DNA of 64,000 bases, from the NCBI GenBank assembly GCA_002898315.1, contig BEHV01000002.1:156145-220144 (forward strand), written 5' to 3'. Shown here in pieces: positions 23,755-52,243 of the stretch. Source of the DNA: a bacterium HR19. GTDB lineage: Bacteria > Calescibacteriota > Calescibacteriia > Calescibacteriales > Calescibacteriaceae. The translations under genes and the position numbers were made by a program. Below the pieces are notes generated by a model. The model searched no databases, had not been told where the DNA came from, and saw only the letters and a list, made by a program, of their open reading frames with translations. Each line of letters starts with the position of its first letter. The stretch's first letter is position 1.

Positions 23755-23829
23755 CGGGGCGTGGCGTAGAGGTAGCGCGTTGGCATGGGGGGCCAAAGGT
23801 CGCCGGTTCAAATCCGGTCGCCCCGACCA
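23755..23829 (+). tRNA. tRNA-Pro (anticodon GGG), CCA encoded
   Basis: The full cloverleaf folds by hand. The acceptor CGGGGCG (23755-23761) pairs perfectly with CGCCCCG (23819-23825). The D-arm runs 23764-23778, the anticodon stem is TTGGC/GCCAA, the loop ATGGGGG gives anticodon GGG, and the T-arm is GCCGG with loop TTCAAAT. The discriminator is A at 23826, followed by encoded CCA. The C1-G72 pair is typical of proline tRNA. The trxA ATG follows 11 bases after the CCA. Confidence 0.93.
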
Positions 23830-23840
23830 CCCAAACCAAA

Positions 23841-24158
23841 ATGGCAATACAACTTGACGACAAAAACTTCGATAATGAAATAAACTCAGAAAAACCAATA
23901 CTTGTTGATTTCTGGGCTGCTTGGTGCGCCCCTTGCAGAGCAATAGCTCCAATACTTGAAGAAATAGAAAAAGAAGACGGTGAAAAAATAAGAATAGGAA
24001 AACTCAATGTAGATGAATACCCTGACATCGCTTCAAGATTCAAAATATTCTCTATCCCAACCCTCGTCATATTTAAGTCGGGTAAGGAATTAGGAAGAAT
24101 GGTAGGTGCAGCACCAAAATCTAAACTCAAACAGTTTATAGAAGAATCCCTAAAATAA
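23841..24158 (+). CDS. trxA: Thioredoxin
   Basis: A 105-residue classical thioredoxin: FWAAWCAPCRAIAP with active Cys at 29 and 32, a cis-Pro in FSIPTLVIF and a Gly-rich VGAAPK end. It reduces protein disulfides in the cytoplasm. The open frame continues upstream through the tRNA-Pro gene, but the true start is this ATG, 11 bases after the encoded CCA and 14 after the discriminator. The intervening sequence is C/A-rich without a Shine-Dalgarno. It must share the tRNA transcript or be transcribed leaderless. A SufD-like gene follows after 25 bases. Confidence 0.95.
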   Translation: MAIQLDDKNFDNEINSEKPILVDFWAAWCAPCRAIAPILEEIEKEDGEKIRIGKLNVDEYPDIASRFKIFSIPTLVIFKSGKELGRMVGAAPKSKLKQFIEESLK

Positions 24159-24183
24159 CCAAAATCCCTTAAAAATTAACTGA

Positions 24184-25242
24184 ATGCAAGAAATCAAAGG
24201 AAGATATATAAGAGTAAAACTCCCAGATAACCTCAAAAGCGTTGAATGGAGAAAATCAGATAGCGAAACAAGAGTCCAAGTATTCCTCAAACTCTTCAAC
24301 AAAGAAAGAGAAAAAAATCAGGTCTTCGTTTTTGCGGATGAGGGAATTTTTATCGCAAATTCAAATGTAAAATCTGACATCAGAACAAACAAAGCAGAAA
24401 TCGGAGATACTAGTTTTGAGACAAACGAATTAGCTCTTTTCATCTTTGAAAGTTCAGATGTTTTCTTGATATTCGGAGAGAACCAAGCAAACTATGTCAG
24501 CTCAATCTCTATAACGGTAGAGAGCGGGATATCTGTAAACCTTTTTGAAATCTGGAAGACGCCCCCGCAATCTTCTTCATTTAACATAACAAAAATTTAT
24601 CTCAAACCGTCAAGTTCTCTTAAACTGCTGTTTTTAGAAAACACAGAAGAATCATCCCTCGTGGTTCAGAAAAAAAAGTTTTTTATCTCAGAAAGCTCTG
24701 ATATGTACGGAGGAAATATATGGAGGGGATTAGGAAAAACCTTCGTTTCAGAGGAGGTATATCTTGATGGAGATGAGAGTTCTTTGAGGGATTTTCACCT
24801 GTGCTTGGGAGAAGGTAAGAAAAAACTTGAAGTAAATTACAAAGTTTTTCACAGAGGGAAAAGGACAAAAAGTTTTGTATCTTCTAAAATTATTTTGAAA
24901 GATAGCTCAGAGATTGCTTTCCTTGAAGATGCAGAGATAGAAAATTCAGCTCTTGATTCCGACTCTTATGTAGAGGGCAAGTCGCTGATTCTTTCGGAAA
25001 AAGCCAAAAACTTCCTTATTCCGTCAATGAATATAGGGGTAAATATAGTCAAGGCGAAGCACTCTGCTTCTTGTAGTAGAGTGGGGGAAAAAGAACTCTT
25101 CTATCTTATGTCAAGAGGTCTTGATAGAGAAACTGCCGAAAAACTTATAATATATGGTTTTATATCAGAGATACTTAATGAGTTCCCTTTGAAACGTTTT
25201 ATTCCCAAACTCCCTGATTTCCCCCAAGACCTTTTGCTTTGA
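24184..25242 (+). CDS. SufD/SufB-family Fe-S assembly scaffold-like protein
   Basis: A 352-residue protein with the SufBD beta-helix core. The diagnostic C-terminal block runs HSASCSRVGEKELFYLMSRG, then LDRETAEKLIIYGFISEIL (about 295-340). SufD works with SufB and the SufC ATPase in Fe-S cluster assembly. SufB, SufC and SufS are not nearby. It is shorter than usual SufD (about 420), mainly in the N-terminal region. The 3' end overlaps the convergent diguanylate cyclase gene by 44 bases. It is probably cotranscribed with trxA. Confidence 0.78.
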   Translation: MQEIKGRYIRVKLPDNLKSVEWRKSDSETRVQVFLKLFNKEREKNQVFVFADEGIFIANSNVKSDIRTNKAEIGDTSFETNELALFIFESSDVFLIFGENQANYVSSISITVESGISVNLFEIWKTPPQSSSFNITKIYLKPSSSLKLLFLENTEESSLVVQKKKFFISESSDMYGGNIWRGLGKTFVSEEVYLDGDESSLRDFHLCLGEGKKKLEVNYKVFHRGKRTKSFVSSKIILKDSSEIAFLEDAEIENSALDSDSYVEGKSLILSEKAKNFLIPSMNIGVNIVKAKHSASCSRVGEKELFYLMSRGLDRETAEKLIIYGFISEILNEFPLKRFIPKLPDFPQDLLL

Positions 25243-26560
25243 GCAATCTCTTATCTGCAACTTTTATTATCTCCTCGTAGTTTGAATCCGCTTCTTTTAC
25301 TGCACATAAGCCCCAGCTCACAGTGGGGCTTTCCCCAAGAATAGCTTTGAGTTCTTGATATAAACTGAATTTTCCAGTTATCCTCCTTATGACAGATATA
25401 CTTTCCTCTTTCTCTATTTCATCAAGAAGAAGAACGAACTCATCTCCTCCAAATCTTGCAGGTATATCGTATCCTCTTACATTCTGCTTCAAAATAAGAG
25501 CGAATTTTTTCAAAATCTCATCTCCTACTGTATGACCGTACTTATCATTGATTGACTTGAATCTATCTATGTCAAATATAACTACAACATAGTTTTTCTG
25601 AGTTCTCCTGTATTTTGCAAAGTTTTGTTCTAAGCGAGCCATAAAATATCTTCTGTTGTATATTGCGGTAAGAGGGTCTGTGATAGCTTTTATTTTTAGC
25701 TCTTCTTCGGTCTCTATGCGTTTGAGTATAGCAGATGTTAATTTTGAGATAAGATAGAGAAGATTCTTCTTGTTTGCGTCAAGTTCTCCTCTCACTACTA
25801 TAAATCCATACTTTTCTCCGTTAGATAATGGAAATGAAGTGTATTCTTTCTCTTCTTCTATCATTCCCTTTGCTATACTATCTATGATTTTGCTTAAAAA
25901 CTCCTCTCCTTTGATTATCTTTATTTTTTCTTTTTTGTCGGTTTCTGTTATTACTTCTTGTTCAGAACTCTTCTCAAATATAGCTATGCCTATTTCATTT
26001 TGGGGTAGTATATACTCCAAAAAATTTCCAACTTCTCTGAAAAGTTTATATCTATCTGTTTCCGCAATTGAGTATCTTATAAAGTTTGTGAGGTAAATGA
26101 TAAATTTTTCATGCTTATCAGCAGAAACTAATTTTTCTTTGATTCCTTTTTTGGTTTTCAGTATTGTATAGAATATTTCTTCTAACTCTTTTGATAATTC
26201 AGGAATACTGATTTTCTCTAATTTTTCGTCCGGGCTTTTGGGGGAAGATGCTTTTTCTTCCTTTCCTTCTGGATTTTCTAATATATTTTTTATGTATTTC
26301 AGCTCTTCAAAGAAATTCAATATCTTTGATATGAACTCTCTGTAAATTATAAAGCTCAAAATAAAGAGCGAAAAAGCAATTAAAATGAAAGAGATTATAT
26401 CTATCCTCCCAAAGATGTGGAGCAAAAGGAGAATAATGAAAATAGTTGCAGGAATAATAAAAAAGCTCTTTGGAAGAATGAAAAATATTCTCATTTTCGC
26501 CAGGGCGAGCGAGGCAAAAGAAAATAAAACAAAAAGCAGTATATACAAAGTGATTTCCAT
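25199..26560 (-). CDS. Membrane diguanylate cyclase (GGDEF)
   Basis: A 453-residue protein. The first ~85 residues hold three hydrophobic spans, then a helical linker and a GAF-like sensory region (~150-280). The C-terminal GGDEF domain has an intact active site ARFGGDEF (GGDEF at 371-375) and, five residues before it, RGYD, the RxxD inhibitory site. It should make c-di-GMP from GTP and be product-inhibited. No EAL domain is present. The gene is alone, converging on sufD with overlapping ends and diverging from trpF. Confidence 0.93.
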   Translation of the reverse strand: MEITLYILLFVLFSFASLALAKMRIFFILPKSFFIIPATIFIILLLLHIFGRIDIISFILIAFSLFILSFIIYREFISKILNFFEELKYIKNILENPEGKEEKASSPKSPDEKLEKISIPELSKELEEIFYTILKTKKGIKEKLVSADKHEKFIIYLTNFIRYSIAETDRYKLFREVGNFLEYILPQNEIGIAIFEKSSEQEVITETDKKEKIKIIKGEEFLSKIIDSIAKGMIEEEKEYTSFPLSNGEKYGFIVVRGELDANKKNLLYLISKLTSAILKRIETEEELKIKAITDPLTAIYNRRYFMARLEQNFAKYRRTQKNYVVVIFDIDRFKSINDKYGHTVGDEILKKFALILKQNVRGYDIPARFGGDEFVLLLDEIEKEESISVIRRITGKFSLYQELKAILGESPTVSWGLCAVKEADSNYEEIIKVADKRLLKAKGLGGNQGVWE

Positions 26561-26664
26561 ATTTGCTCAATCTCCTTCCTCACGATTTCCCGATACAATA
26601 AAAAATATAAAAATCCTGAATATACTTATTGCTTTACTTATACTTTTTTCTTGTATCTTATTTT

Positions 26665-27291
26665 ATGGTTGTGAAGATATGTGGTCTGACAAATGAGGAA
26701 GATGTTCTGCTATGCGACAGCGAAGGAGCAGATATGCTCGGATTCATATTTATAAGGCAAAGCCCAAGATATGTAGAGAAGGGCTCAAAAATCTTTAAAT
26801 TGAAAACTCGTGCGAAAAAGGTTGCTGTGCTATCAAATCCAGAGATAAAAAATATTGAATTCTTCGCAGAGCATTTTGAGTTCGTTCAGCTACACGGATT
26901 GGAAGAAAGAAAAACTATAAATGAATTCAAAAAAATCGGTTTGAAAATCATAAAGACAATTTTCCCGGAAGTTGAAGAGTCGGTAAAGCTGTGCTTTCAA
27001 GTTTCAGATGTAGTTGACCTTTTTCTTGTTGATTCGTCTTCCAAACTCAAAGGAGTAAAGAGTTCCCTCTTTTCATTAGAAAAACTGAAAGATATATTAG
27101 ATAGTGAAGGAAAGATTCTCGGTGTGAATTACATATTATCTGGTGGCTTAAATCCCGAAAATGTTGTAGAATTTCTCAGAATCTTAAAGCCCTACGGTGT
27201 TGATGTCGCCTCTGGTGTAGAGGACTCTCCCGGAAAAAAATCTCCCGAAAAAGTGAGAAAATTCATACTAAGTGTAAAAAATTTTTCTTAA
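26665..27291 (+). CDS. trpF: Phosphoribosylanthranilate isomerase
   Basis: A 208-residue TIM-barrel enzyme of tryptophan biosynthesis. KICGLTNEEDV at 4-14 carries the catalytic Cys, GFIFIRQSPRYV follows, and near the C-terminus are LSGGLNPENV and GVDVASGVEDSPGKK, the phosphate-binding end of PRAI. The chosen ATG starts MVVKICG as in the family; the frame is open 12 codons upstream with hydrophobic residues that do not align. No other trp gene is near. pgeF starts two bases after its stop. Confidence 0.95.
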   Translation: MVVKICGLTNEEDVLLCDSEGADMLGFIFIRQSPRYVEKGSKIFKLKTRAKKVAVLSNPEIKNIEFFAEHFEFVQLHGLEERKTINEFKKIGLKIIKTIFPEVEESVKLCFQVSDVVDLFLVDSSSKLKGVKSSLFSLEKLKDILDSEGKILGVNYILSGGLNPENVVEFLRILKPYGVDVASGVEDSPGKKSPEKVRKFILSVKNFS

Positions 27292-27293
27292 AC

Positions 27294-27965
27294 ATGCATA
27301 AAATCAACTCAAAAATGCGCGAGATAGATTCAGGAATACAATTTGATTTTCCAACCGGAGAAAAAGGTATCTTCTTCTTCAAGAATTTTCAAATCACAGA
27401 AGAATTCATAAACGATATGGTTCTTGCGAGACAAAATCATACGGGAACAAATATAATTTATCCAGATGAATACAATAAATTTGAATTTTTTGATGGCTTG
27501 GTCTCTTATAGGAGTGTAAGGCAATATCTTGGTGTTAAGACCGCAGATTGTCTCCCTGTTCTTTTCGCATCAGAGAAGTTAAAGGGTTGCTTTCATTCTG
27601 GATGGAGAGGTCTGATAAACGGTATAGTTGAAAACCTTTATGAAAAGGTGAAAATTATGGGTGAGGATTTTTCAGAAATAACATTTGTTATTGGACCTCA
27701 TATCTGTGGCAGATGCTATGAAGTCAAGGAAGATGTAGCCGATATTTTCATAAGATTTGCAAAGGAGAAAGGTATCAGCCAGAGTGTATTTATGTATTTC
27801 AAAGACCACAAGATTTTTATTGATCTTGCTTCCTGCTGTAAGGCCTTGCTCAAAACATTTTCTGTAAAAAAAATTTTTGATGTCCAGATATGTGTTAAAG
27901 AAGATATGAGGTTTTTTTCAAGAAGAAGGGGAGATAATTCCTCGCAGATTTCAGTGATATTTTAG
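27294..27965 (+). CDS. pgeF: Laccase-domain purine nucleoside phosphorylase / peptidoglycan editing factor (PgeF/YfiH)
   Basis: A 223-residue protein with every YfiH-family motif: QNHTG (usual QVHG), VKTADCLPVLF, HSGWRGL, GPHICGRCYEV and a C-terminal FFSRRRGD. The His and Cys in these motifs form the Zn/Cu site. Relatives cleave purine nucleosides, and in E. coli the protein prevents misincorporation of Ser into peptidoglycan. It is coupled to trpF (two-base gap) and followed by about 95 bases before tRNA-Leu. Confidence 0.93.
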   Translation: MHKINSKMREIDSGIQFDFPTGEKGIFFFKNFQITEEFINDMVLARQNHTGTNIIYPDEYNKFEFFDGLVSYRSVRQYLGVKTADCLPVLFASEKLKGCFHSGWRGLINGIVENLYEKVKIMGEDFSEITFVIGPHICGRCYEVKEDVADIFIRFAKEKGISQSVFMYFKDHKIFIDLASCCKALLKTFSVKKIFDVQICVKEDMRFFSRRRGDNSSQISVIF

Positions 27966-28061
27966 GATGAATTTTGTGTTTAGTTATTGAGCGTGGGAGA
28001 GCATATTTTGTAAAAGAAGATATTTTTGTCCGAAGGTAATAAAATAATTTTTTTATATTGG

Positions 28062-28148
28062 GGGTAGGTGGCGGAATGGTAGACGCAGGGGACTTAAAAT
28101 CCCCTGGGGGTGTAAACCCCCGTGCGGGTTCAAGTCCCGCCCTACCCA
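28062..28148 (+). tRNA. tRNA-Leu (anticodon TAA)
   Basis: The acceptor GGGTAGG (28062-28068) pairs with CCTACCC (28141-28147), with discriminator A at 28148. Anticodon stem GGGGA/TCCCC holds loop CTTAAAA, giving anticodon TAA. A long variable arm (GGGGGTGTAAACCCCC) and T-arm GCGGG/CCCGC make it class II leucine. CCA is not encoded. The next gene starts 10 bases later. Confidence 0.95.
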
Positions 28149-28158
28149 CATATTATTT

Positions 28159-29289
28159 GTGTTTTGTACAACCTCTTTCTCTAACATCAAAAGCGAAGAA
28201 AAAGCATGCAAGAGCATCATAGATGAAGTTATAAGTAAACTTGAACTACCGAGAAAAAAAGATATGATGCTCATAATTTTCCTCAGCTCAAAATACAAAG
28301 TTGAAAAAGTGATGGATTTTTTTTCAGATATAGATAATATCGGTGTCTCTGTTGGTGGAAATATAACAGATGATGGTGAATTTGAAGGAGAAGAGTCAGG
28401 AATATCTGTTCTCGCAATAGATAAAAGGTATATCCGTTGTCAGAGCTTCTCTTTTTCCGTCCCACAAATGGGATTGAGGGAAGTAGGTAGAAAAATCGCA
28501 GAAAGATTTGCAACAGACATACCATCATCTCTAATTCTTTTTCCAACCCCTTTTTATAACATAGATGAAATTCTGAACGGAATAAGAGATATAAAAAGTG
28601 ATAACCTTTTTGTAACCGGAGGAGTAGCGAGTTCTTATGGAGATTCTCCTATCTTTACATTTGAAAATGGCTCGATAGGAAGCTATGCGATAAGTGGAGT
28701 GTTTTTGGAAGGTGTGGAGGGAAGCGGAAGAGTTGCTCAGAGCTGTAAAGTTGTGAGCAGTAAGTTTGTGGTTACATCATCAGAAACCAATGTCATAGAG
28801 GAGATAGATGGAGAGTTAGCTTCTGATGTGTTGAACTATGTTGCTTCTGAAGTAATTACCGAAGAACCCGATATAGGAAAATTACCATGGTTCGTCGGAG
28901 TTGAAATTGACAGCAGATTGGAGCTGTTCAGATTCTATCCTATTTTAGATGTCAAAAACGGGTATATATATGTTGGTGGTGAAGTGGAGGTAGGAAAAAA
29001 CATAGTGTTTGCGGTTATGTCTCGGAAATATGCAGATGAGATTTCAAAAATGGAGTTTTCATCCATCAGTCCTAATTTATCTTACGATTTTTGCATGATT
29101 TTCAACTGCCTTGCGAGAGGAAAAAAGTTTTTCGGAAGAAAAAATCACGATATATCAATAGTAAAAAAGAGATTGAAGTGTTCTATAGGTGGGTTTTTTT
29201 CAAACGGTGAAATAATAACTTTGGGTTCGCCTTTTCTTTTCACATACTCAGCAGTTCTCGCAAATTTCAGAAAAGTTTTCATATCGTAA
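28159..29289 (+). CDS. FIST-domain sensory protein
   Basis: A 376-residue protein with the FIST plan. The N-terminal domain (~1-200) has the VxVGGxxTDDGEFEG turn and LFPTPFYNIDEILNGI. The C-terminal FIST_C part (~210-370) ends with FNCLARGKKFFGRKNHDI and GFFSNGEIITLG, the usual C-terminal signature. FIST domains are thought to bind small ligands such as amino acids, and often sit beside chemoreceptors, kinases or GGDEF proteins. The start is GTG, 10 bases after tRNA-Leu and without a Shine-Dalgarno; no earlier start exists outside the tRNA. The next two genes encode receptor-like membrane proteins. Confidence 0.85.
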   Translation: MFCTTSFSNIKSEEKACKSIIDEVISKLELPRKKDMMLIIFLSSKYKVEKVMDFFSDIDNIGVSVGGNITDDGEFEGEESGISVLAIDKRYIRCQSFSFSVPQMGLREVGRKIAERFATDIPSSLILFPTPFYNIDEILNGIRDIKSDNLFVTGGVASSYGDSPIFTFENGSIGSYAISGVFLEGVEGSGRVAQSCKVVSSKFVVTSSETNVIEEIDGELASDVLNYVASEVITEEPDIGKLPWFVGVEIDSRLELFRFYPILDVKNGYIYVGGEVEVGKNIVFAVMSRKYADEISKMEFSSISPNLSYDFCMIFNCLARGKKFFGRKNHDISIVKKRLKCSIGGFFSNGEIITLGSPFLFTYSAVLANFRKVFIS

Positions 29290-29352
29290 TTGAGCTATAT
29301 GGTTTTTATTGTAAAATTCGGAAGAAATATTTAAACTAATTTTTATATACTT

Positions 29353-31092
29353 ATGCTTTGGCTCTATGCTATAAGGTTTGTGCTCAAATTGCTTGCTGTC
29401 TCCTTTGTTGATTACTCTAAAATCACGTCTCCTGAATTTTCCTTGCCTTTCCTTTTCATTTCCTCTTTTGAAATATTATTTTCACGCAGATTATATTCTC
29501 GCAGAGAAAACATATATCTTATCGCAATAGCTTCTTTTCTCATCTATCTTATCACAATATACTCCAAAGCTCATCTTTATCTCCTTTTGCTTTTCTTATT
29601 CATTGATATAAGCTCGGGAATGGCTATTTTTTTGAGATGGGTGGTATTTCTACCTCTGATATTTACGGTTGCGATTTTCTCTCTCAATATCCCTGTTTTA
29701 TTTGTGTCTCGCTCGGTGAGTCCAGATAAAGACCTACCCGAAAATTTCAAGGTGATCAAAGGAAGCATGATAGACAGATACACGGGGAAAAAGGGGAGTG
29801 TAAATTTTTTGGGTGGTTTCCTTGTTGGTAATTATCTTTTTTCCACAACATCTCCAGAAGGAGACGAGTTCTTTGTTTTTCTGAGAACAATTGATAGCGA
29901 GAAAGAAATACTCTTTTTTTCTTTTTTGATAATTTTGAGTTTGATTTTCGTACTACTTATTTTGCAAACTGAAAGAAAAGATTTTTCCGCAGATTCATAC
30001 TCAAATGGTAAAGCCAAAACAGATAGAAATATATCTGATGAAAAGGGGGTGCCAAGCGAAGATAAAACCGAACTCTTTGCTCTATACAAAAAATATTTAG
30101 AAGAAGCCATATCAAATCTGAAAGTAAACATTGAAGAAGATAAAGCTTACCTATCATCAATCACCAAAACCTTAGACGATTTCAAGTTTAAGGTCTCATC
30201 AATACTTCTTGAAAGATCATCTGAAACAGATGTAGGGTCATTGATTAAGAATTTCAAATCATCAATATATGATAAAGTTCAGCAAATATCTAAAAAGATT
30301 GATGAGTTTGAAAGAGTCATTGATATTTCTGCATTTGAGAGAATTCAGCTCTCATCTTATGATTTTTATCTCTCTCTTATTACACTTAAAGAGAGTATAA
30401 GCTCACTCCGTGAAATTTTGCTCCATAAGTTCAGAAATATTGAGTATGTTTTCCACGAGATTTACTCCCCTCTTGGCGGTATAGAGAATGATATTGGTAA
30501 AATAAGATTTTTCAACATACAGAAAATTTTTGATTTTTCCGACATTGAAGAGGTATTTCAGGATTTTTGTGAAATGATTGTAAGGTTCAAATCAAGTATA
30601 TCTGCAATTCTTGACAGCATAAAAATTCTCGCTTTCAACTCTTTCGTGATAGCATATAAAATAAAGGACAAGGTGGAAAGCTTTGAAGTCCTTTCATCAG
30701 CGATAGAGATGATAATGGTAAATGTAGAGAATTTTTACTCTGAAGTGCAGGAGCTATGGAATGTGGTAGAGGAAAATCTGGCAAACCTTAGGTTTGAAAA
30801 CCCAGGTATTTCACTTGACGAGCTTGAAAAACAGATTGCCGAAGCGAAGAAAATATTAGACGAAGGAATGCAGGGAATAAGGTCTTTCGTAAGTTCTCTT
30901 GTCCAGTTTACCAATACATTTTTGAACAATTTAAGTTCGGGTATAGAAGATATGACAGAAGGTACCAATTTCTTCTCCAAAGTTCATATCAAATTTGAAC
31001 TCCTGAAAGATAGTTTTGATTTGATAAAAGGAGATATTTCTCTGCTAGAAGATTTTGCAAGTAAAAAAAGTGAGGGGGTGGAAGAAAAATGA
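29353..31092 (+). CDS. Membrane coiled-coil protein resembling a degenerate chemoreceptor (first of pair)
   Basis: A 579-residue protein. Residues ~1-110 hold four or five membrane spans, a soluble loop follows (~125-175), then another span (~185-205) and a long cytoplasmic coiled coil (~240-579). Near 425-460 the segment ILAFNSFVIAYK followed by FEVLSSAIEMI matches the spacing and hydrophobic pattern of the receptor hairpin tip and its flank (LALNAAIEAAR, then FAVVADEIR), but key tip residues are changed. No HAMP domain is seen. The start is ATG without Shine-Dalgarno. The stop overlaps the next ATG (ATGA). The assignment to the chemoreceptor superfamily is inferred by eye. Confidence 0.6.
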   Translation: MLWLYAIRFVLKLLAVSFVDYSKITSPEFSLPFLFISSFEILFSRRLYSRRENIYLIAIASFLIYLITIYSKAHLYLLLLFLFIDISSGMAIFLRWVVFLPLIFTVAIFSLNIPVLFVSRSVSPDKDLPENFKVIKGSMIDRYTGKKGSVNFLGGFLVGNYLFSTTSPEGDEFFVFLRTIDSEKEILFFSFLIILSLIFVLLILQTERKDFSADSYSNGKAKTDRNISDEKGVPSEDKTELFALYKKYLEEAISNLKVNIEEDKAYLSSITKTLDDFKFKVSSILLERSSETDVGSLIKNFKSSIYDKVQQISKKIDEFERVIDISAFERIQLSSYDFYLSLITLKESISSLREILLHKFRNIEYVFHEIYSPLGGIENDIGKIRFFNIQKIFDFSDIEEVFQDFCEMIVRFKSSISAILDSIKILAFNSFVIAYKIKDKVESFEVLSSAIEMIMVNVENFYSEVQELWNVVEENLANLRFENPGISLDELEKQIAEAKKILDEGMQGIRSFVSSLVQFTNTFLNNLSSGIEDMTEGTNFFSKVHIKFELLKDSFDLIKGDISLLEDFASKKSEGVEEK

Positions 31093-32711
31093 AATTTGAT
31101 TCCGCAAAAATAAAGCCAGCTCACAGAGATATATTCAAGGTTATTTTGCTTATTGCAATTTTTATTCTTCTCAATATATCCTTCGGTAAAGGTATTTTTG
31201 ATTTTCCCGATCTTTATATTTTGCCTTTTGGATTCATATTGGCACTCTTTATTAGAAAAGAAAGAAAATTATTCTTTTTCATCTTCTTCACGACATTTCT
31301 TCTTCCATATTTTGGTATAAGAACTGCTTTCTCATCGGTTCTATATCATGAGCTATCAGCTATATTGATTCTCTCTCTTTCATCACTCTTTATTTCACTT
31401 GTCTTATCATTTCTCACCGTAAAATTTCTGCAAGATAAAGGAGAAATTTTTTATAAGATAAGTGAGGTTGAAGACAAAAAGTTAGAAAAAGAGAAAGAGG
31501 TGGAAGTGTATGTGAGAGATGATGAAGATCAGAAAAGAGTAGTAGAAGAATTGAAAGATGAGATAAGATTTTTTGAAACAGAGATAGAGAGCGAGGTAAG
31601 GAAGAAATTTCCCGAAATTAATTCGGCTGAAGAAGAGCTGGAAAAGAGCATAGAAAGAGAGAAGAAAAGAAGAGAGGAGAGCATAGCATCTTTGTATGAG
31701 CTGAAAGAGAAGATTTCCTACTTCAAAAAGAGAGTGAGCAAAAGCTACTCTGAACTCTCTTCATTCATAAAAGATGTCAAAGATATTTATACATATACTG
31801 TTTCGTTTATCAGAAAAGTTGAGAATTTGAAAGAACTTTTAGATGCTAAAATTCCCGCTAAAACAACAATTTCCCTTATGTCTGACAAAAAAATTTTGGA
31901 ATTGAAAGATATCTTTGAATCTTTCAGCAATTCCTTCAGAGAGCAAGTTGAGAGAATCCTGAAGTTTAATGTGGAAGATATGATGGAAAAAATATTCATT
32001 TTGCGGACATTGATATACAACTTGAAAGAGCTTTTAAAAAAGCTTGATAGAATAAACTACTTTTCTTATGCTGTTTCACTTAAAATATCACAGATCGCAG
32101 GCAGTTCAGGAGATAGTGCTGTGAGAAGAACTCTTCTTTCCATAGCCCAAGATATAGATAACCTTTCATTCAAGTCATTAATTATATTCAGCGAAGCAGA
32201 GGAAAACATTGAAAAACTTGAAAAGAAAACAGGTGTCGTTGTTGAAAGCTTTGATGAAAAAAGCGAAAACCTGAACCAGATGAGATCTTCTATTAAAAAT
32301 GCCATGAACAAGCTGAATGTCATTCTCAAAGACAGAATTCAAAACTTTACTCAGGAAGTGAGTGGTTTTATGAACATATCAGAGATAGAAGAAATCAACA
32401 GATTTATTTCGAAGAATCAAGAATATATACAGAATATTTTGGAGTTTGGTCAAGATATAGAGAAAAAATTTCTCGTTTTCATAGACATGCTTGAAAGAAT
32501 AGAATCTGATATAGATGAACTCATAGATATATTTATACTATATGAAAATCAGTTTGAGGAAATCATAAGCAGAGAGAAGAAAATTCTTGAAGAGTTGTCA
32601 GAAATAGAGTTTGGCTGGAAGAAACTTTATTTATCTGATTTCAAGAGCATTTCAGAGCTAAGGAATATAAAAAATATAATATCAGAATTTGAAAAAGAAT
32701 TTATGTCTTAA
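31089..32711 (+). CDS. Membrane coiled-coil protein resembling a degenerate chemoreceptor (second of pair)
   Basis: A 540-residue partner of the preceding protein, with the same plan: about four N-terminal spans (~18-115), a highly charged Lys/Glu coiled coil (~125-220) and a second coiled coil to the C-terminus. The stretch INYFSYAVSLKISQIAGSS, then TLLSIAQDIDNLS (about 320-360), again parallels the receptor tip region with the consensus eroded. It begins by ATGA overlap with its neighbour, and GGGGG six to ten bases before the ATG can serve as ribosome-binding site. The pair probably forms a heteromeric membrane signalling scaffold with the FIST protein. Confidence 0.58.
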   Translation: MKFDSAKIKPAHRDIFKVILLIAIFILLNISFGKGIFDFPDLYILPFGFILALFIRKERKLFFFIFFTTFLLPYFGIRTAFSSVLYHELSAILILSLSSLFISLVLSFLTVKFLQDKGEIFYKISEVEDKKLEKEKEVEVYVRDDEDQKRVVEELKDEIRFFETEIESEVRKKFPEINSAEEELEKSIEREKKRREESIASLYELKEKISYFKKRVSKSYSELSSFIKDVKDIYTYTVSFIRKVENLKELLDAKIPAKTTISLMSDKKILELKDIFESFSNSFREQVERILKFNVEDMMEKIFILRTLIYNLKELLKKLDRINYFSYAVSLKISQIAGSSGDSAVRRTLLSIAQDIDNLSFKSLIIFSEAEENIEKLEKKTGVVVESFDEKSENLNQMRSSIKNAMNKLNVILKDRIQNFTQEVSGFMNISEIEEINRFISKNQEYIQNILEFGQDIEKKFLVFIDMLERIESDIDELIDIFILYENQFEEIISREKKILEELSEIEFGWKKLYLSDFKSISELRNIKNIISEFEKEFMS

Positions 32712-32800
32712 ATCTGAAACTCTGCTCAACTCAAAAATTTTCGGCAACAAATTTTTCAGTTTTTTTATCAACAAAAGATAACTTCATAATTTTTAAAAAA

Positions 32801-33301: not shown

Positions 33302-33365
33302 GAGATGAAATGGAATATGCTGAAAGCAAGAAAATTTTTTAAATAGAGGATATATGGTATAAGAT

Positions 33366-33677: not shown

Positions 33678-33701
33678 TAAAAATGAGGAGGTGAGCAGGT
33701 T

Positions 33702-35531: not shown

Positions 35532-35588
35532 CTTATGACCTGGTTTTATAAAGTATGTGTTGAAAATTGTGGGGAGGAAAATTAGAGT

Positions 35589-39188: not shown

Positions 39189-39189
39189 A

Positions 39190-42462: not shown

Positions 42463-42577
42463 CTGTAAATTTTATTCATTTGAGTGAGTTTCTTTAAATT
42501 TTTCAAGAGAAAGTGAAAGCAAATTGAGAAAAAAAATGAAAAACAAAATTAAAATCTGAAATTCCGGAGGAAGAACT

Positions 42578-45103: not shown

Positions 45104-45240
45104 TAACCTTTCAATAATCTATTCTGAATTTATTTTGCCGAATTTCATCAACAAAAATTTGTTTATATTATTTTTTATTTTTTAAAATTTTGAAATAGCT
45201 TTTCTTATCAGCGTTTTGAGTAAATTAGGGAGAGTAAGTT

Positions 45241-47382
45241 ATGAGAATAGGAATGAAATTTGAAGGGGAGAATCTTGAAGCAATTGTAGGAGAATTTGCG
45301 GGTCAGGCAGATGGCTCCTGTCTTCTTATGTATGGTGAAACAGTGGCTCTATCTACTGTTGTGTCGTCAAAGAAAAATGTTGCAGGAATAGATTTTCTTC
45401 CGCTTACCGTTGAGTTCAGAGAGAAATCTTATGCTGTCGGAGAAATCCCCGGGGGATTTTATAAAAGAGAAGGAAAACCCAGCGAAAGAGAAATACTGAT
45501 TTCAAGATTAATAGATAGGTCTATAAGACCTCTTTTTGAAAGAGGATATGTAGAAGATACTCAGGTTATATCTTATGCCCTTTCAGCAGATAAAATTCAC
45601 GAGCCAGATATATTGGCTATCAACTCTACTTCAATTGCCCTTTTGATCTCTGACATACCTTTCTACACTCCTGTGGCAGCAGTAAAAGTTGGTATGAAAG
45701 ATGGTAAATTTATCCTCAATCCCAAAAGCGAGGAAGAAAAAGCTCAACTTGAGCTTGTGGTAGCTGGAACAGAAACAGGAATAGTTATGGTTGAAGGACG
45801 GGCTAACTTTGTATCAGAAGATACTTTCTTAGACGCTATATTTTTCGCTCACAAGTATATAAAAAAACTCATAGAGTTCCAAAAGAAAATATGCGAGGTT
45901 TTGGGCAAGCCAAAAAGAAGTTTTAAACCCATAACCTACTCGGAGGATGTTATAGAAAAAATAGCGAGCAAGATAGACATCAAAGATATAGTTCTGACAT
46001 CTTCAAAGATAGAAAGAAGAAGAAAAGAAGACGAGGCGTTGGAAAACCTGAAAAAAGAGTTAGACCATTTTGTCCCTCCTGATGAGAGATATTCCGATGA
46101 AGAGAAGGTTTCAATACTGACCCACTCGTTTTTTGAACTCACCCGGAGGTTTGTCAGAAGAATGATAGTAGAAGATAAAAGAAGAATAGACGGGAGGGGT
46201 CCAGATGATATAAGAGAGATAGAGATACTTCTTGGTGTTCTTCCAAGGGCACACGGTTCTGCGATATTCAGAAGAGGAGAAACACAAGCTCTCGTCACTG
46301 TGACTTTGGGGACTCCAAAAGATGTTCAGCCGGTTGAGGGTTTTGGCGTAGAGCTTGAAGCAAAAAGGTTCATGCTACACTATAACTTCCCTCCTTTTTC
46401 ATCGGGAGAGGTAAAGCCCATCAAAGGTCCTTCAAGAAGAGAGATAGGGCACGGCTATCTTGCGGAAAAAGCTCTCGCTCCCGTAATACCGCCAGAAGAT
46501 ATATTCCCTTATACTATACGCGTCGTTTCAGATATACTCTCATCAAACGGCTCAACTTCAATGGCATCGGTGTGCGGTGGAAGTTTGGCTCTTTTTGACG
46601 CAGGTGTTCCAGTCCTCTCACACGTTGCAGGAGTTGCTATGGGAGTCATAAAAGAGGGAGAAACCTTTGAGGTCATAACAGATATTTTGGGAGATGAGGA
46701 CCATCTTGGGGATATGGATTTCAAAATAGCGGGTTCTGAAAACGGAATAAGCGCAGTACAGATGGACCTCAAAACTATGGGACTATCGTTTGACATAATA
46801 AGAGAAGCTGTGTACAGAGCTAAAAAGGCAAGAGAGAAAATCCTTCAGTTCATGTATAACCATATACAGAAACCAAAATCGCTCTCTCCATACACTCCAA
46901 AATTCCATAAGCTCAAAGTTGATGTTGATAAAATAGGAGCCCTTATAGGTCCGAACGGCAGAAACATAAAACAAATAGTTGAAAAGACAAAAGCAGATAT
47001 AGAAATAGACCTTGATGGTAATGTCAAGATTTTTGCTCCAGACGAAGAGAAACTCAAAGAGGTGATTGACCTTATAAATTACTACACAAGTGATGTAGAA
47101 GAGGGCAAAATATATAAAGCTAAGGTGAAAAGAATACTACCAAACGGCGCATTGGTACAACTTATCCCTTCTCTTCAATACGCTTTCATGCATATTTCTC
47201 ACGTTGATGTGAAAAGAATAAGCAGAGTAGTAGATGCTATAAAACCGAACGAAGAAATAGAGGTTAAAGTTGTCAAAATTGAAGAAGACGGGAGAATACT
47301 CGTATCAAGAAAAGAAGCCCTCCTTGAAAAAGAAAGAGGCGAGAGAAGAAAAGAGAAGGAAGAGAAAAGAAGAAGAATATAA
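45241..47382 (+). CDS. pnp: Polyribonucleotide nucleotidyltransferase (PNPase)
   Basis: A 713-residue enzyme with two RNase PH domains. The second carries LPRAHGSAIFRRGETQALVTVTLG and SNGSTSMASVCGGSLALFDAGVP, and active-site GDEDHLGDMDFKIAG. A KH domain (IGALIGPNGRNIKQI, ~560-573) and an S1 domain (KIYKAKVKRILPNGALV, ~620-690) follow. It degrades RNA phosphorolytically. The C-terminal 25 residues are almost only Lys, Arg and Glu. GGGAG lies about 10 bases before the ATG. rpsO is not upstream, unlike in many bacteria. Confidence 0.96.
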   Translation: MRIGMKFEGENLEAIVGEFAGQADGSCLLMYGETVALSTVVSSKKNVAGIDFLPLTVEFREKSYAVGEIPGGFYKREGKPSEREILISRLIDRSIRPLFERGYVEDTQVISYALSADKIHEPDILAINSTSIALLISDIPFYTPVAAVKVGMKDGKFILNPKSEEEKAQLELVVAGTETGIVMVEGRANFVSEDTFLDAIFFAHKYIKKLIEFQKKICEVLGKPKRSFKPITYSEDVIEKIASKIDIKDIVLTSSKIERRRKEDEALENLKKELDHFVPPDERYSDEEKVSILTHSFFELTRRFVRRMIVEDKRRIDGRGPDDIREIEILLGVLPRAHGSAIFRRGETQALVTVTLGTPKDVQPVEGFGVELEAKRFMLHYNFPPFSSGEVKPIKGPSRREIGHGYLAEKALAPVIPPEDIFPYTIRVVSDILSSNGSTSMASVCGGSLALFDAGVPVLSHVAGVAMGVIKEGETFEVITDILGDEDHLGDMDFKIAGSENGISAVQMDLKTMGLSFDIIREAVYRAKKAREKILQFMYNHIQKPKSLSPYTPKFHKLKVDVDKIGALIGPNGRNIKQIVEKTKADIEIDLDGNVKIFAPDEEKLKEVIDLINYYTSDVEEGKIYKAKVKRILPNGALVQLIPSLQYAFMHISHVDVKRISRVVDAIKPNEEIEVKVVKIEEDGRILVSRKEALLEKERGERRKEKEEKRRRI

Positions 47383-47477
47383 CAATTTCTTTTTGTAATT
47401 CCTAAATTTTTCTTATGAGGTTTTATTTTTCTTTTCAATTGTAAAATAGATTGAAGATAGGGGAGGTAGTGAGGTTT

Positions 47478-48236
47478 ATGGCAGGGCACTCAAAATGGCA
47501 CAATATAAAGCATAAGAAAGCAGCACAGGACCAGAAGAGAGGGAGAATTTTCACAAAGGTGATCAGAGAGATTGAGGTTGCGGTAAGACAAGGGGGGCCG
47601 AACCCCGAGACAAATCCTCGTCTGCGACTTGCGATTGAGATGGCAAAAAGTGTCAACATGCCAAAAGAGAATATAGAAAGAGCTATAAAGAAAGCAACAG
47701 GTGAACTCGGTGGTGAAAAACTTGAAGAGGTCTTCTTTGAGGGATATGGTCCCGGCGGAGTTGCAATGTATATCTCTGCTATAACAGATAATAAAAATAG
47801 AACCGCTTCCCAAATAAGAGCAATCTTTTCAAAATTCGGCGGAAGCCTCGCAGAAGCTGGTTCTGTATCATGGCTCTTTGAAATGAAAGGAGTCATCACA
47901 TTTCAGAAGAACTCTATACCTTCAAAAGATGAATTTATAGATTTCGTCATAGAAAGCGGAGCAGAAGATATAAACGAACTTGATGATGTGATTGAGGTGT
48001 ACTGCAACCCTAAAAATTTTGAAGAACTGAAAAAGAAAATTGAAGATGCTGGATGGAGATACGAAAGAGCAGAAATAAGCTTTGTGCCAAAAAGTACGGT
48101 TAAGGTATCGGGCAAAGATGCAGAACATCTCCTCAAACTTATGAACGCAATTGATGAACTTGACGATGTACAAAAGGTATGGGCAAACTTTGAAATAGAA
48201 GATGAAGAAATGGAAAGATTGATTGCAACAATGTAG
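47478..48236 (+). CDS. yebC: YebC/PmpR-family transcription or translation regulator
   Basis: A 252-residue YebC. It begins MAGHSKWHNIKHKKAAQDQKRG (the hallmark), with the NKNRTASQIRAIFSKFGGSLAEAGSVSWLF region in domain 2. Family members bind DNA as regulators, and recent work links them to relief of ribosome stalling at proline. The frame is open nine codons upstream, but the start is this ATG with GGGGAGG 14 bases before. Its TAG stop ends on G48236, which is also the first base of tRNA-Tyr, so mRNA and tRNA overlap by one base. Confidence 0.95.
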   Translation: MAGHSKWHNIKHKKAAQDQKRGRIFTKVIREIEVAVRQGGPNPETNPRLRLAIEMAKSVNMPKENIERAIKKATGELGGEKLEEVFFEGYGPGGVAMYISAITDNKNRTASQIRAIFSKFGGSLAEAGSVSWLFEMKGVITFQKNSIPSKDEFIDFVIESGAEDINELDDVIEVYCNPKNFEELKKKIEDAGWRYERAEISFVPKSTVKVSGKDAEHLLKLMNAIDELDDVQKVWANFEIEDEEMERLIATM

Positions 48237-48319
48237 GGGAGGTGCCGGAGCGGTCAAACGGGCCCGGCTGTAAACCGGGTGGCCCCAGGCCTACGGGGGT
48301 TCAAATCCCTCCCTCCCCA
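48236..48319 (+). tRNA. tRNA-Tyr (anticodon GTA)
   Basis: The acceptor GGGGAGG (48236-48242) pairs with CCTCCCC (48312-48318), with discriminator A at 48319. Anticodon stem CCCGG/CCGGG holds loop CTGTAAA, giving anticodon GTA. A long variable arm (GGCCCCAGGCC) and T-arm GGGGG/CCCTC (one G-T pair) fit tRNA-Tyr. CCA is not encoded. Base 1 overlaps the yebC stop; the next start codon is 10 bases after the discriminator. Confidence 0.93.
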
Positions 48320-48329
48320 CACAAAAAAA

Positions 48330-48779
48330 TTGCTCCTTACCACTATCTACTCAATTATATCTTTCTCATTCTTCCTCAACATAAAGGGTGGTTTGTCTTT
48401 TCCTTCCTCAATAGCCCAGAAGGTTTCTCCTTCCTTCGCTTTTGCTCTCGGAGTTGCGGAATTTGATAGCTTTGATGCTGGAGCAAACTTTTACTTCTTC
48501 CCATCTGCCGGTTTTTTCTTCCCATCATCAAGAGTTTCAATACGTTTTGATTCCCCTGGCTTTTTCGCAAGCATAGGAGCAGGAATCGGTCCAGGTATTC
48601 AGTCCCAGAGACAAAAAATTTTAGCTTATCTTGGACTTGAGACATTTGGAGATTTCGGAGTGTGGATAGAACCAAGGAGGTTTTCTGCCCACCTTTCCCC
48701 TATAATTTCCGGTTTTTTTGGAAGTAATTCCGGATACATAATTTCTCTTCTCTTCGGTTTCTCGGTGTTCTCCCCGTAA
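48330..48779 (+). CDS. Small exported protein, possibly outer-membrane beta-barrel
   Basis: At about 149 residues, with TTG at 48330 the only plausible start outside tRNA-Tyr (10 bases after its end, no Shine-Dalgarno). The N-terminus is hydrophobic and signal-like (LLTTIYSIISFSFFLN). The rest alternates aromatic and small residues (FALGVAEFDSF, AGANFYFFPSAG, FFASIGAGIGPG) and ends SLLFGFSVFSP with a near-terminal aromatic, as in small outer-membrane barrels. I recognise no family. A putative lipoprotein gene follows after 43 bases. Confidence 0.55.
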   Translation: MLLTTIYSIISFSFFLNIKGGLSFPSSIAQKVSPSFAFALGVAEFDSFDAGANFYFFPSAGFFFPSSRVSIRFDSPGFFASIGAGIGPGIQSQRQKILAYLGLETFGDFGVWIEPRRFSAHLSPIISGFFGSNSGYIISLLFGFSVFSP

Positions 48780-48822
48780 CCCTTAACAAATATTTCATTT
48801 CTGAATTAAATTTTTTCTCTGA

Positions 48823-49836
48823 ATGAAATTAACTCTGGAGAAAGATAAACTGCTTATATTTTTTTTCTTCATTTTTTTCTCTTGCTCTGGAACATCTGAG
48901 GTTAATCTTGGTTCGGCTTATTTCTCCTTCTCATCTACATACCGGCTCATAAAATTTTTGAGAGATGGCGTCTTCCCAAAAAGCTGGACCGACCCCTCTG
49001 ACTTTTTTGAGAAACTTTATAACTTCTTTACAGTTCTTTTCCCGAATTATAAATCAATCATACAGGTAAAGCCGTTCTCTACAAGAGATTTCTCAAATTG
49101 TATCACCTCTGCTATATTCCCTGACTCAACTTATGTTTTTGGAGAGTGTTCTGAATTCACAGAAGATAAAGATGATAAATCTGTACCTTTGATCTTAATT
49201 CGCTCATCATATATCTGCTCTGATATAAAGTCAACGAAAAACTGCAAAGGGAAAATAGAATACTTTTTCAATATTTTGGGCTGGTGTATAGATAACCTTG
49301 ATTACCTATCGTGTTCTGATATTTTCAGAAATTTTTCGGTTTCTTATTTTTACTTTTTTTCTGAATTTTCTTATTTGTCAGCAGAAACTCAAAGCACAGC
49401 TTACACACTAAGCATCAACATTGACTATTTCAGCACAAGTATAACTCTGTTTTCTGAATATAAAGATAGAAGAACAATTTTGATGAGATATAACTCAGAA
49501 ATACGGGATTTTTCTTTTATGTATGAGGTTTATAGCAAAATTATTCTCAATGTATATTTTGATGGGAAATCTCTTTTATCTTATATGAACTCTCCCGAAG
49601 GGACTTGCTATACTGTCAAATCTGATTTCAAAACCAAAGAACCATTAATATATATATTTCCAGATTTTTCTCAACGGTTTGGCGAAGATAATTTTGCGTA
49701 TTGCCCTGAAAAAGGAGTTATAAATATAAACACGAATTCAAGAAGTTTTCAGATTGATTTTGCGAAAGCTCAATGTCAAGAACTCATAAATTCTTCAAAA
49801 GATTTTGAGAGAAATTCAAGTTCTTGCTCGCCATAG
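48823..49836 (+). CDS. Putative lipoprotein of unknown function
   Basis: A 337-residue protein. The N-terminal signal (LLIFFFFIFFSCSG) has a Cys at about residue 21 that could be a lipobox, although the -3 and -2 residues are Phe rather than the usual Leu/Ala. The mature part is rich in Ser, Phe, Tyr and Asp, with nine or ten further Cys, suggesting disulfides and an extracytoplasmic location. I recognise no domain. It follows the small exported protein on the same strand and converges on the PmbA-like gene 24 bases later. Confidence 0.6.
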   Translation: MKLTLEKDKLLIFFFFIFFSCSGTSEVNLGSAYFSFSSTYRLIKFLRDGVFPKSWTDPSDFFEKLYNFFTVLFPNYKSIIQVKPFSTRDFSNCITSAIFPDSTYVFGECSEFTEDKDDKSVPLILIRSSYICSDIKSTKNCKGKIEYFFNILGWCIDNLDYLSCSDIFRNFSVSYFYFFSEFSYLSAETQSTAYTLSINIDYFSTSITLFSEYKDRRTILMRYNSEIRDFSFMYEVYSKIILNVYFDGKSLLSYMNSPEGTCYTVKSDFKTKEPLIYIFPDFSQRFGEDNFAYCPEKGVININTNSRSFQIDFAKAQCQELINSSKDFERNSSSCSP

Positions 49837-49859
49837 ATATTATGTGAAAAACCCTAACT

Positions 49860-51143
49860 TTAAGAAGATACCTCAACATCTTGAAACATTATTGATGGAG
49901 TTCCTATATTTCCGCAAACTTTGAAATCAGAAAATAAAACCGCATCTTTCAAAATTTCAAATATGTTCCCAGATATTACTGCTGTTTTGAATGGCTGTCG
50001 GGAGTTCAAAACATACCCTCTACAACCCACAGAGAAGTTCCCTCTTACTTCATCTCCTGTATGCAGACCTATTATTTCAGATACATATAAGGTTTTTGGC
50101 ATTTTCTCTGCGTCTTCTCTTTTTATCTTCCCTGGAAGAAGAGCTAATGCAGAAAAGTATTGTGATGGGAGAGCAAGATGGTTCTGCCTCATAGAACATC
50201 TTGTATTCTTTATTCCCAATATTTCTGATGTTTTTTCATCTGTAAAGAAGTTCTCAATAACTCCACCATTTATGAGGTAGAAATTATTTTTTACTCCTCC
50301 TTCATCATCAAAAAACCTCAGACCTCTGTTGAACTTCATTTCATCTTTTATTTGTGAAAAACTTTTCGGCTCAACTATCTCGCATATAAATATATTGTCT
50401 CCAAAAATTTTCTTTCCTATATCCTTTATTGAAAATCTTGAATTTCCTTTTACTAATCTATCTCCGCAGAAGTTCTGGACTATAAACTCAATAAACTGTG
50501 CGGAGATCTTCGGAGGTAGAACAATATTATATTTCCCGCTCTCTATCTTTCCGTTTCCGAAGGAAAAATCATTCAAAATCTCATCGCAAATTTTCCTTAT
50601 GTCTATTTTATCGGGCGAGAGATAAGATTCTGAGAAATAAACGATCTGCGATTCGCCATTTTTTTCTCCCCCTACCGAACCATAGATGAAAAAGTAGTTT
50701 TTCTCTTCTTCAAGCTTTACTCCGAACGAATTTATGATCTTCCTTTTTTCGGTTGTCTTACCACAGACGATTTTATCTACTATTACTTTGAAATCTGCTT
50801 TTTGTTTTATGATGCTGGTAAGTTCCATCACCACCTCTTTTGATTTCCATTTCTTCTTCTCTCCAAGAGTAAATTTTTTTGACACCTTGACTCTTGGTAT
50901 TGAAAGTTTTTCTTCTATAAGTGGTTCTGGAATTGATTTACCAGATACTCTATCTTTTCCCGATTTTTCAAAGGCAAAAAATCCATACTTTTCCATATCA
51001 GAATACCTTACAGAAGTTGATTTTATTTTTTTCGTCTGTGGGTTCGGGGAGGTATCACCTGCGGAAAGAACGAACTCCTCCGATACCTTTTCGTATTCAA
51101 AAACTTCCCATACTTTGTATTTTTTCTTTATATCATTTATCAT
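49860..51143 (-). CDS. PmbA/TldE-like protein (TldD/PmbA family)
   Basis: A 427-residue protein whose C-terminal third has the family marks GLHTGDEVRGNFSVGCRGYVL and, near the end, FKVCGNIGTPSIMFQDVEV. The mid-region YNIVLPPKISAQFIEFIV matches the start of the third TldD/PmbA domain. There is no HExxxH zinc motif, so it corresponds to the non-catalytic PmbA/TldE subunit. TldD/TldE dimers process ribosomally made peptides and destabilise antitoxin. No TldD partner is in the window. The N-terminal ~100 residues are poorly conserved. Confidence 0.75.
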   Translation of the reverse strand: MINDIKKKYKVWEVFEYEKVSEEFVLSAGDTSPNPQTKKIKSTSVRYSDMEKYGFFAFEKSGKDRVSGKSIPEPLIEEKLSIPRVKVSKKFTLGEKKKWKSKEVVMELTSIIKQKADFKVIVDKIVCGKTTEKRKIINSFGVKLEEEKNYFFIYGSVGGEKNGESQIVYFSESYLSPDKIDIRKICDEILNDFSFGNGKIESGKYNIVLPPKISAQFIEFIVQNFCGDRLVKGNSRFSIKDIGKKIFGDNIFICEIVEPKSFSQIKDEMKFNRGLRFFDDEGGVKNNFYLINGGVIENFFTDEKTSEILGIKNTRCSMRQNHLALPSQYFSALALLPGKIKREDAEKMPKTLYVSEIIGLHTGDEVRGNFSVGCRGYVLNSRQPFKTAVISGNIFEILKDAVLFSDFKVCGNIGTPSIMFQDVEVSS

Positions 51144-51239
51144 CTTAATTGATTTTATATCTCATCAAAACTAAAATGTGTGTTGTGAAAATATTTGCAG
51201 GAATATAAACAAAACTTCTTTGAAAACGGTTTGATTTAT

Positions 51240-51587
51240 CTATTGGACTTTTGGAATTTTTCCTGTTATCAAGTAATCTGTAAATAATGTTTCCACATCT
51301 ATTATTTTGTTTCTCAGGTCTCTTACTATTTCTTTTGCTTCTTCATCTTCTTTGAGGAATCTTTCCCCTACAATAAGGCAGGAATCAATAAATTCAAGAA
51401 TATCTATTATTTTCACAATTTTTTTTACTCTGTTAGCGAGTTCCTCATCTTTCAAAAAGTCATCCGCAAGCAAAACCTTATCGCTGGAATTATCAAATTG
51501 AGCTTTATCTTCATATTCGCTATTTTCCAGATTATCTTTTTCCTTCCCCACAATAGGTTTAACTTTCTTTCTTTTTTTCTCATTCAT
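51240..51587 (-). CDS. Small charged protein of unknown function
   Basis: About 115 residues from the ATG at 51587 (the frame is open 21 codons further upstream). A Lys-rich start (MNEKKRKKVKP) is followed by an acidic stretch and then amphipathic helices to the end (VKKIVKIIDILEFI, LRNKIIDVETLF). Likely cytoplasmic and helical. No recognised domain; whether it is a real gene rests on length and codon use similar to its neighbours. It follows yjbQ on the same strand. Confidence 0.5.
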   Translation of the reverse strand: MNEKKRKKVKPIVGKEKDNLENSEYEDKAQFDNSSDKVLLADDFLKDEELANRVKKIVKIIDILEFIDSCLIVGERFLKEDEEAKEIVRDLRNKIIDVETLFTDYLITGKIPKVQ

Positions 51588-51698
51588 AGCTTTTGTATAT
51601 TTTCGGAAAAAAAGTTTTTTTTTATACTGTGGGATTTGGAGCTTTTTCATTCATATTGAAAAGGAATTATAAGAATTCTCTTTGGTGTTTTCTACCAT

Positions 51699-52118
51699 CT
51701 ATACCCCAATTATTTTTACTATCACCTTTCTTGTTCTGGGACCATCAAACTCAACCAGGAAGATTCCTTGCCATGTTCCCCACGGTAAGCTCCCGTTTTC
51801 TATTGGTATAGAAACTGAACTTCCAACAATTGAGGTCTTTATATGAGCATCAGCGTTTCCTTCTGTGTGTGAGTAGCTTCCTCTGTGAGGTATGATTCTG
51901 CTGAGTGTTTCGTGAATATCTTTCTGAACCGTTGGGTCCCAGTTTTCGTTTATCATAACTCCACAGGTTGTGTGTGGAATAAACACTGCCATAATTCCAT
52001 CTTTTATACCGCTTTCTGAAAGAATCTTTTCAACTTCTTTGGTTATATCTACGCTTGATGTTCTTGACGGGGTTTTGACCTGTATTGTTTTAGAGAAGGT
52101 TTTGAAACTTCCGGACAA
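51699..52118 (-). CDS. yjbQ: YjbQ-family protein (UPF0047)
   Basis: A 139-residue protein with the family motifs VFIPHTTCGVMINEN, DPTVQKDIHETL, SYSHTEGNADAHIKTSIVG, LPWGTWQGIFLVEFDGPR. The conserved His and Glu residues form a presumed active site; some members have weak thiamine-phosphate synthase activity. The start is a TTG at 52118, forced because tRNA-Thr ends 13 bases upstream on the same strand. No Shine-Dalgarno is present; the spacer is an AAAAAATTTTTT palindrome. Confidence 0.9.
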   Translation of the reverse strand: MSGSFKTFSKTIQVKTPSRTSSVDITKEVEKILSESGIKDGIMAVFIPHTTCGVMINENWDPTVQKDIHETLSRIIPHRGSYSHTEGNADAHIKTSIVGSSVSIPIENGSLPWGTWQGIFLVEFDGPRTRKVIVKIIGV

Positions 52119-52131
52119 AAAATTTTTGGGG

Positions 52132-52204
52132 AGCCAAGGGTGGGATTCGAACCCACGACCTGGTGCTTACAAGGCACCCGCTCTACCACCTGAGCTACCT
52201 TGGC
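52132..52204 (-). tRNA. tRNA-Thr (anticodon TGT)
   Basis: Read on the minus strand: acceptor GCCAAGG (52204-52198) pairs with CCTTGGC (52139-52133), with discriminator T at 52132. D-arm GCTC/GAGC, anticodon stem GGTGC/GCACC with loop CTTGTAA (anticodon TGT) and T-arm GTGGG/CCCAC complete the cloverleaf. CCA is not encoded. yjbQ starts 13 bases downstream on the same strand. Confidence 0.95.
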
Positions 52205-52243
52205 TCAAAATAAAAAACAAATCCAAAATGAAACTGAGGTTAA

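Follow-up and report, generated by a model that had tools for sequence, protein, structure and literature searches.

tRNA genes and their downstream neighbours in the window

The window analysed here, a stretch of 64,000 nucleotides, carries four tRNA genes according to ARAGORN, and each of them is followed on its own strand by the start codon of a protein gene only 10 to 14 nt past the discriminator base (Table 1). Three of the four starts are GTG or TTG, and none of the spacers contains a Shine-Dalgarno (SD) sequence, while lon and nuoL of the same window do have one. The register of every tRNA was fixed by acceptor pairing, T8 and the T-loop. A yebC/TACO1-type gene lies immediately upstream of tRNA-Tyr, and the G of its TAG stop (48234-48236) is G1 of the tRNA, so that RNase P cleavage would leave an incomplete UA stop. 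The same overlap is found in G002, while G003 and G004 have gaps of 2 and 1 nt.

Table 1. Features of the four tRNA-led loci in the window, with the links found in related genomes (gaps in nt from discriminator to start codon).
Positions	Strand	Feature	Support	Related genomes
23755-23829	+	tRNA-Pro(ggg); discriminator at 23826, encoded CCA at 23827-23829	ARAGORN; RF00005 end and register check
23827-23840	+	14-nt spacer CCACCCAAACCAAA between discriminator and ATG, no SD	Sequence
23841-24158	+	trxA, thioredoxin, ATG start	Pfam PF00085; orthologues	Same tRNA-Pro(ggg) link in G002, G003, G004 at gaps 15, 9, 8
28062-28148	+	tRNA-Leu(taa); discriminator at 28148, CCA not encoded (CAT follows)	ARAGORN; RF00005 end and register check
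28149-28158	+	10-nt spacer CATATTATTT, no SD	Sequence
28159-29289	+	FIST-domain protein, GTG start	Pfam PF08495/PF10442	Same link and GTG at 10 nt in G002 and G004 (41% identity in G004)
47451-48236	+	yebC/TACO1-type gene upstream of tRNA-Tyr	Pfam PF01709
48236-48319	+	tRNA-Tyr(gta); discriminator at 48319, CCA not encoded (CAC follows)	ARAGORN; RF00005 end and register check
48320-48329	+	10-nt spacer CACAAAAAAA, no SD	Sequence
48330-48779	+	149-aa protein, TTG start	No Pfam match; homologues	Homologues follow tRNA-Tyr in G003 (9 nt) and G004 (10 nt)
51699-52118	-	yjbQ/UPF0047, TTG start	Pfam PF01894	Same link in G002, G003 and Candidatus Calescibacterium nevadense (L047)
52119-52131	-	13-nt spacer CCCCAAAAATTTT, no SD	Sequence
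52132-52204	-	tRNA-Thr(tgt); discriminator T at 52132, CCA not encoded (CCC follows)	ARAGORN (which gave 52129-52205); RF00005 end and register check

The window belongs to a draft genome of 1.876 Mb in 22 contigs with 45 tRNA genes (G000) from Candidatus Calescibacteriota (EM19), the phylum in which NCBI places Calescibacterium, a deep-branching group of hot-spring bacteria. Its YjbQ is 93% identical to that of the MAG BF2.bins.44 (JAUQOU01) and 67% identical to that of C. nevadense. The comparison relied on four related genomes (G001 to G004), two of the same genus and two of other genera of the family, all other genomes used being related only at the level of the domain.

Spacing between tRNAs and protein genes

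Using a hexamer-based gene caller, we measured the distance to the next start for every tRNA, working on sequence stretches around each of them. In G000, 25 of 45 tRNAs have a same-strand CDS 7-16 nt past the discriminator (29 within 30 nt), with gaps of 9 (8 cases), 10 (6), 11 (2), 12 (3), 13 (2) and 14 nt (4). G001, G002, G003 and G004 gave 20/45, 22/45, 23/44 and 24/46. Over these five genomes in three genera the count is 114 of 225, with a sharp onset at 9 nt, which is also the mode (39 cases), followed by 10 nt (26), and only six of the 114 below 9 nt. Fifteen genomes of other lineages, sampled only in part, gave 3 of 114. The remaining tRNAs are followed by another tRNA, by an opposite-strand gene or by a gene further away.

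The observation made in the original prediction, that all four tRNAs of this region lie just upstream of a protein start without a Shine-Dalgarno, is confirmed. The pattern extends far beyond the window, although it holds for about half of all tRNAs and not for all of them. Normal spacing at the other tRNAs of the genome had been set out in advance as an outcome that would speak against a genome-wide design, and it is encountered for only about half of the tRNAs.

Genome compaction, or the placement of start codons at the first possible codon after the tRNA, could have produced such a pattern, since coding density is about 91% and the gene caller may not start genes inside tRNAs. This explanation is rejected by several controls. 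Without the gene caller, asking only for an ORF of at least 80 codons starting within 60 nt, 68 of 124 anchors (one genome per genus) have such an ORF at 7-15 nt, against 0 of 124 on the mirror 5' side, 15 of 429 after CDS stops, where the histogram is flat, and 2 of 50 outgroup anchors. First-start positions would moreover fall off from 0 instead of starting at 9. The starts themselves are conserved between genera and are genuine: substitutions between G000 and G002 orthologues are three-periodic within codons 2-8 (12, 7 and 29 at positions 1, 2 and 3) while 9 of 25 spacers carry an indel, and 52 of 72 cases have an in-frame stop inside the tRNA or the spacer. The hslV gene reads TTG ACA AC in all four genomes, which places the catalytic threonine at position 2.

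Conservation of the links across genera

The same isoacceptor precedes the same gene across the three genera while the spacers diverge. These links include Asp-hslV, Pro(ggg)-trxA, Val(tac)-PfkB kinase, Lys(ttt)-SPFH protein, Cys-release factor, Gln(ttg)-prs, Glu(ttc)-BpsA-like, Ser(cga)-dnaX, Thr(ggt)-mreB, Leu(taa)-FIST, Tyr-149-aa protein and others, at 36-89% identity to G003/G004, with many alignments starting at residue 1. Links that differ between genera are also short, as for Glu(ctc) and Ser(gga) in G003/G004 and for Lys(ctt), which precedes a GAPDH-like protein in G004 (a name drawn from the N-terminal sequence only). Exceptions exist, such as Thr-yjbQ, which are 188 nt apart in G004. 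An RtcB-type RNA ligase gene (stretch L010, 1586-3022, +) is itself led by tRNA-Arg(tct) at 12 nt.

Translation initiation

The 16S 3' end carries the normal CACCTCCTTTCT, and an EM motif search found AAGGAGGTA at the usual distance in about 36% of first genes, so SDs are used in this group without being universal. The original prediction had contrasted the SD-less spacers with strong SDs at other genes. As SDs are found in only about a quarter to a third of other genes, lacking one is not unusual by itself, but an SD core is significantly rarer among tRNA-led genes (1/72 against 52/282 elsewhere, p=6e-5). Non-ATG starts are more frequent (33/72, or 46%, against 45/282, or 16%, p=3e-7), although part of this difference could reflect that the caller penalises non-ATG starts where it has a choice. 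The spacers are A/T-rich and the start region is weakly structured, but no more than shuffled sequence, and no special structure was detected beyond base composition.

Promoters

Spacers of 9-14 nt leave no room for a promoter or a terminator between tRNA and CDS. Over the five genomes, 34 led units are head-to-head with a divergent gene, so their promoter must lie upstream of, or in, the tRNA. A search for a sigma-70 consensus upstream of the tRNAs gave best scores no better than shuffled sequence. The T-rich upstream regions of G000, G003 and G004 only showed an AATTTTTGA-like motif, in excess 50-55 nt before the tRNA, and the promoter type was not identified.

Promoters inside the tRNA genes could alternatively drive separate, naturally leaderless mRNAs, the neighbourhood being incidental. 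TATAAT-like sites upstream of other first genes do lie close to the start codon, so short leaders may be common in this group. We consider this very unlikely, as tRNA bodies are constrained sequence, many different isoacceptors show the same spacing, and the spacers are too short for a promoter and are not conserved.

Processing of the tRNA ends

RNase P RNA is present in all four genomes tested. In contrast, the proposal that RNase Z or an equivalent makes the 3' cut is not supported in its RNase Z form. No RNase Z reached the family cut-off in any of the four genomes, drafts that are 82-86% complete by marker count. The best hits are conserved metallo-beta-lactamase proteins of 256-259 aa (stretches L302, L303, L304 and L305; on L304 at 1378-2148, +), which score 45-56 bits against a cut-off of 293 and resemble cyclic-nucleotide phosphodiesterases as much, and a true RNase Z appears to be missing. 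RNase E/G is present in all four genomes.

Only 17-21 tRNAs per genome encode CCA, yet 125 of 131 CCA-less tRNAs of G000-G004 keep a C directly after the discriminator (C74), as do the few CCA-less tRNAs seen in the outgroup genome G011 (8/8). The gap distribution is the same for CCA-encoded and CCA-less tRNAs (means 10.6 and 10.0, both with mode 9, p=0.37), without the shift of 3 nt that might be expected if the former were cut after CCA and the latter after the discriminator. This argues against two such cut sites and suits a single one, such as next to C74, or a ruler set by the tRNA body. C74 might instead be kept for pairing with RNase P RNA, and both readings are inference.

A ruler set by the tRNA body would also suit a different model, in which the uncut tRNA acts as a structured 5' leader. 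Ribosomes would initiate on the tRNA-mRNA precursor with the tRNA body held at the mRNA exit side, the 9-nt minimum being what the ribosome needs between the acceptor stem and the P-site codon, and processing would come later or on other copies. The identical spacing with or without encoded CCA, the sharp onset at 9 nt and the A/T-rich spacers with a weakly structured start region, though no more so than shuffled sequence, are in its favour. However, tRNA 3' maturation is needed for function and is normally fast, the acceptor stem would lie over the region that usually contacts the 16S 3' end, and we know of no precedent for a canonical tRNA doing this in bacteria. We regard this model as unlikely, though less so than internal promoters.

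A proposed model of tRNA excision generating mRNA 5' ends

The explanation that we favour, with reasonable but not full confidence, is that many tRNA genes of Calescibacteriota are the first cistron of tRNA-mRNA transcripts. In this view, transcription begins upstream of the tRNA, RNase P frees its 5' end, and one endonucleolytic cut just past the discriminator frees its 3' end. The cut would not be made by a recognisable RNase Z, candidates being RNase E/G in the A/T-rich spacer or an enzyme cutting next to C74. The downstream product would be an mRNA with an SD-less leader of about 6-14 nt, translated by SD-independent, near-leaderless initiation. Against this model stand the lack of transcript data, the roughly half of the tRNAs that do not show the pattern, the absence of a clear sigma-70 promoter upstream of the tRNAs, the missing shift of 3 nt between CCA-encoded and CCA-less tRNAs, and the fact that the enzyme is unknown. 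The sequences themselves establish the architecture, its spacing, breadth and conservation, the depletion of SDs and the shift in start codons. Cotranscription, supported only by position and by the divergent neighbours, is inferred, as are the cut, its enzyme and the translation of the product: no RNA data were available, so neither spanning transcripts nor mRNA 5' ends were examined, and a 5' end within about 10 nt of the start codon follows only if the tRNA is cut as proposed. The interpretation given in the original prediction is therefore partly supported: the genome-wide, and in fact group-wide, design with SD-less and often non-ATG starts holds, the choice of RNase Z does not find support, and the coupling of expression to tRNA synthesis or processing was not addressed by these data, nor was any regulatory benefit shown.

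A bolder version of the model is not excluded, although we hold it as somewhat less likely than not. A whole bacterial lineage would run a tRNA-punctuation system in which half of the tRNA genes serve as removable 5' leaders of housekeeping genes. A single non-RNase Z cut near C74 would make both the tRNA 3' end and the mRNA 5' end, and ribosomes would initiate on a ruler-like SD-less leader of 8-13 nt, coupling these genes to tRNA maturation.

Such a system would show that mitochondria-like tRNA punctuation exists as a general layout in free-living bacteria. It gives dozens of natural mRNAs with a defined, SD-less leader on which to study non-canonical initiation, and raises the question of how tRNA 3' ends are made without a recognisable RNase Z. 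It also warns that changing a tRNA gene in such genomes would hit genes such as mreB, smpB, dnaX, hslV, prs, a release factor and rtcB.

Comparison with known systems

The layout is best known from animal mitochondrial DNA, where tRNAs directly abut protein genes and tRNA excision is proposed to create mRNA ends with no or very short leaders. Same-strand adjacency is found here as well, and at yebC/tRNA-Tyr even the stop codon overlaps the tRNA by one base. Several aspects differ: the genome is that of a free-living bacterium of 1.9 Mb, one tRNA usually leads one unit with its own upstream intergenic region (median about 95-123 nt) rather than one genome-long transcript, the spacer is 9-14 nt rather than about 0-2, and an RNase Z of the mitochondrial kind was not found. 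As to mRNA 3' ends made by RNase P at a following tRNA, the position fits only at tRNA-Tyr after yebC and a few others, most tRNAs having an upstream gap of 40-250 nt, which does not settle the matter either way. The layout works like tRNA punctuation, but it departs from the mitochondrial type in the RNase Z feature and was not tested on RNA ends. We found no earlier report of tRNA punctuation in bacteria, of tRNA-mRNA dicistrons of this kind or of such a layout in Calescibacterium/EM19, nor a description across any bacterial phylum, in the part of the literature that was searched.

Sporadic bacterial tRNA-mRNA operons, such as thrU-tyrU-glyT-thrT-tufB of E. coli or tRNA-Trp-secE in many bacteria, also place a tRNA ahead of a cotranscribed protein gene, and tRNA-Trp-secE is present here at 22 nt. 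Those are isolated cases and in general carry a normal leader with an SD, while here about half of all tRNAs show a near-constant SD-less spacer. Propionibacterium acnes offers a precedent for tRNA 3' processing without an obvious RNase Z (PMC3848588). About half of its tRNAs encode CCA and cuts map between the Cs of CCA in some tRNAs, which would fit the conserved C74, but most of its tRNAs are transcribed individually and are not reported as mRNA leaders.

In Nanoarchaeum equitans, the 5' tRNA-His half defines the 5' UTR of valS (PMC3491384), a single half-gene in an archaeon and not a general arrangement. The leaderless mRNAs of actinobacteria share SD-independent initiation on leaders shorter than about 10 nt (PMC4681348, PMC4633059), but there the short 5' end comes from the promoter and not from excision of a tRNA.

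Other stable RNAs

The bacterial small SRP RNA family, sought as a further stable-RNA control, had no match in G000, G002, G003 or G004, other SRP RNA families not being searched. On the other hand, tmRNA (stretches L290 and L292) and RNase P RNA (L298 and L299; also L300) are closely followed by or abut same-strand ORFs. In G002 the tmRNA is followed after 24 nt (CCA included) by an ORF with a signal-peptide-like start, and the RNase P RNA of G000 and G002 abuts or overlaps a same-strand CDS. The layout may thus apply to stable RNAs in general, and in G004 RNase P RNA, tRNA-Asp and hslV lie in a row.
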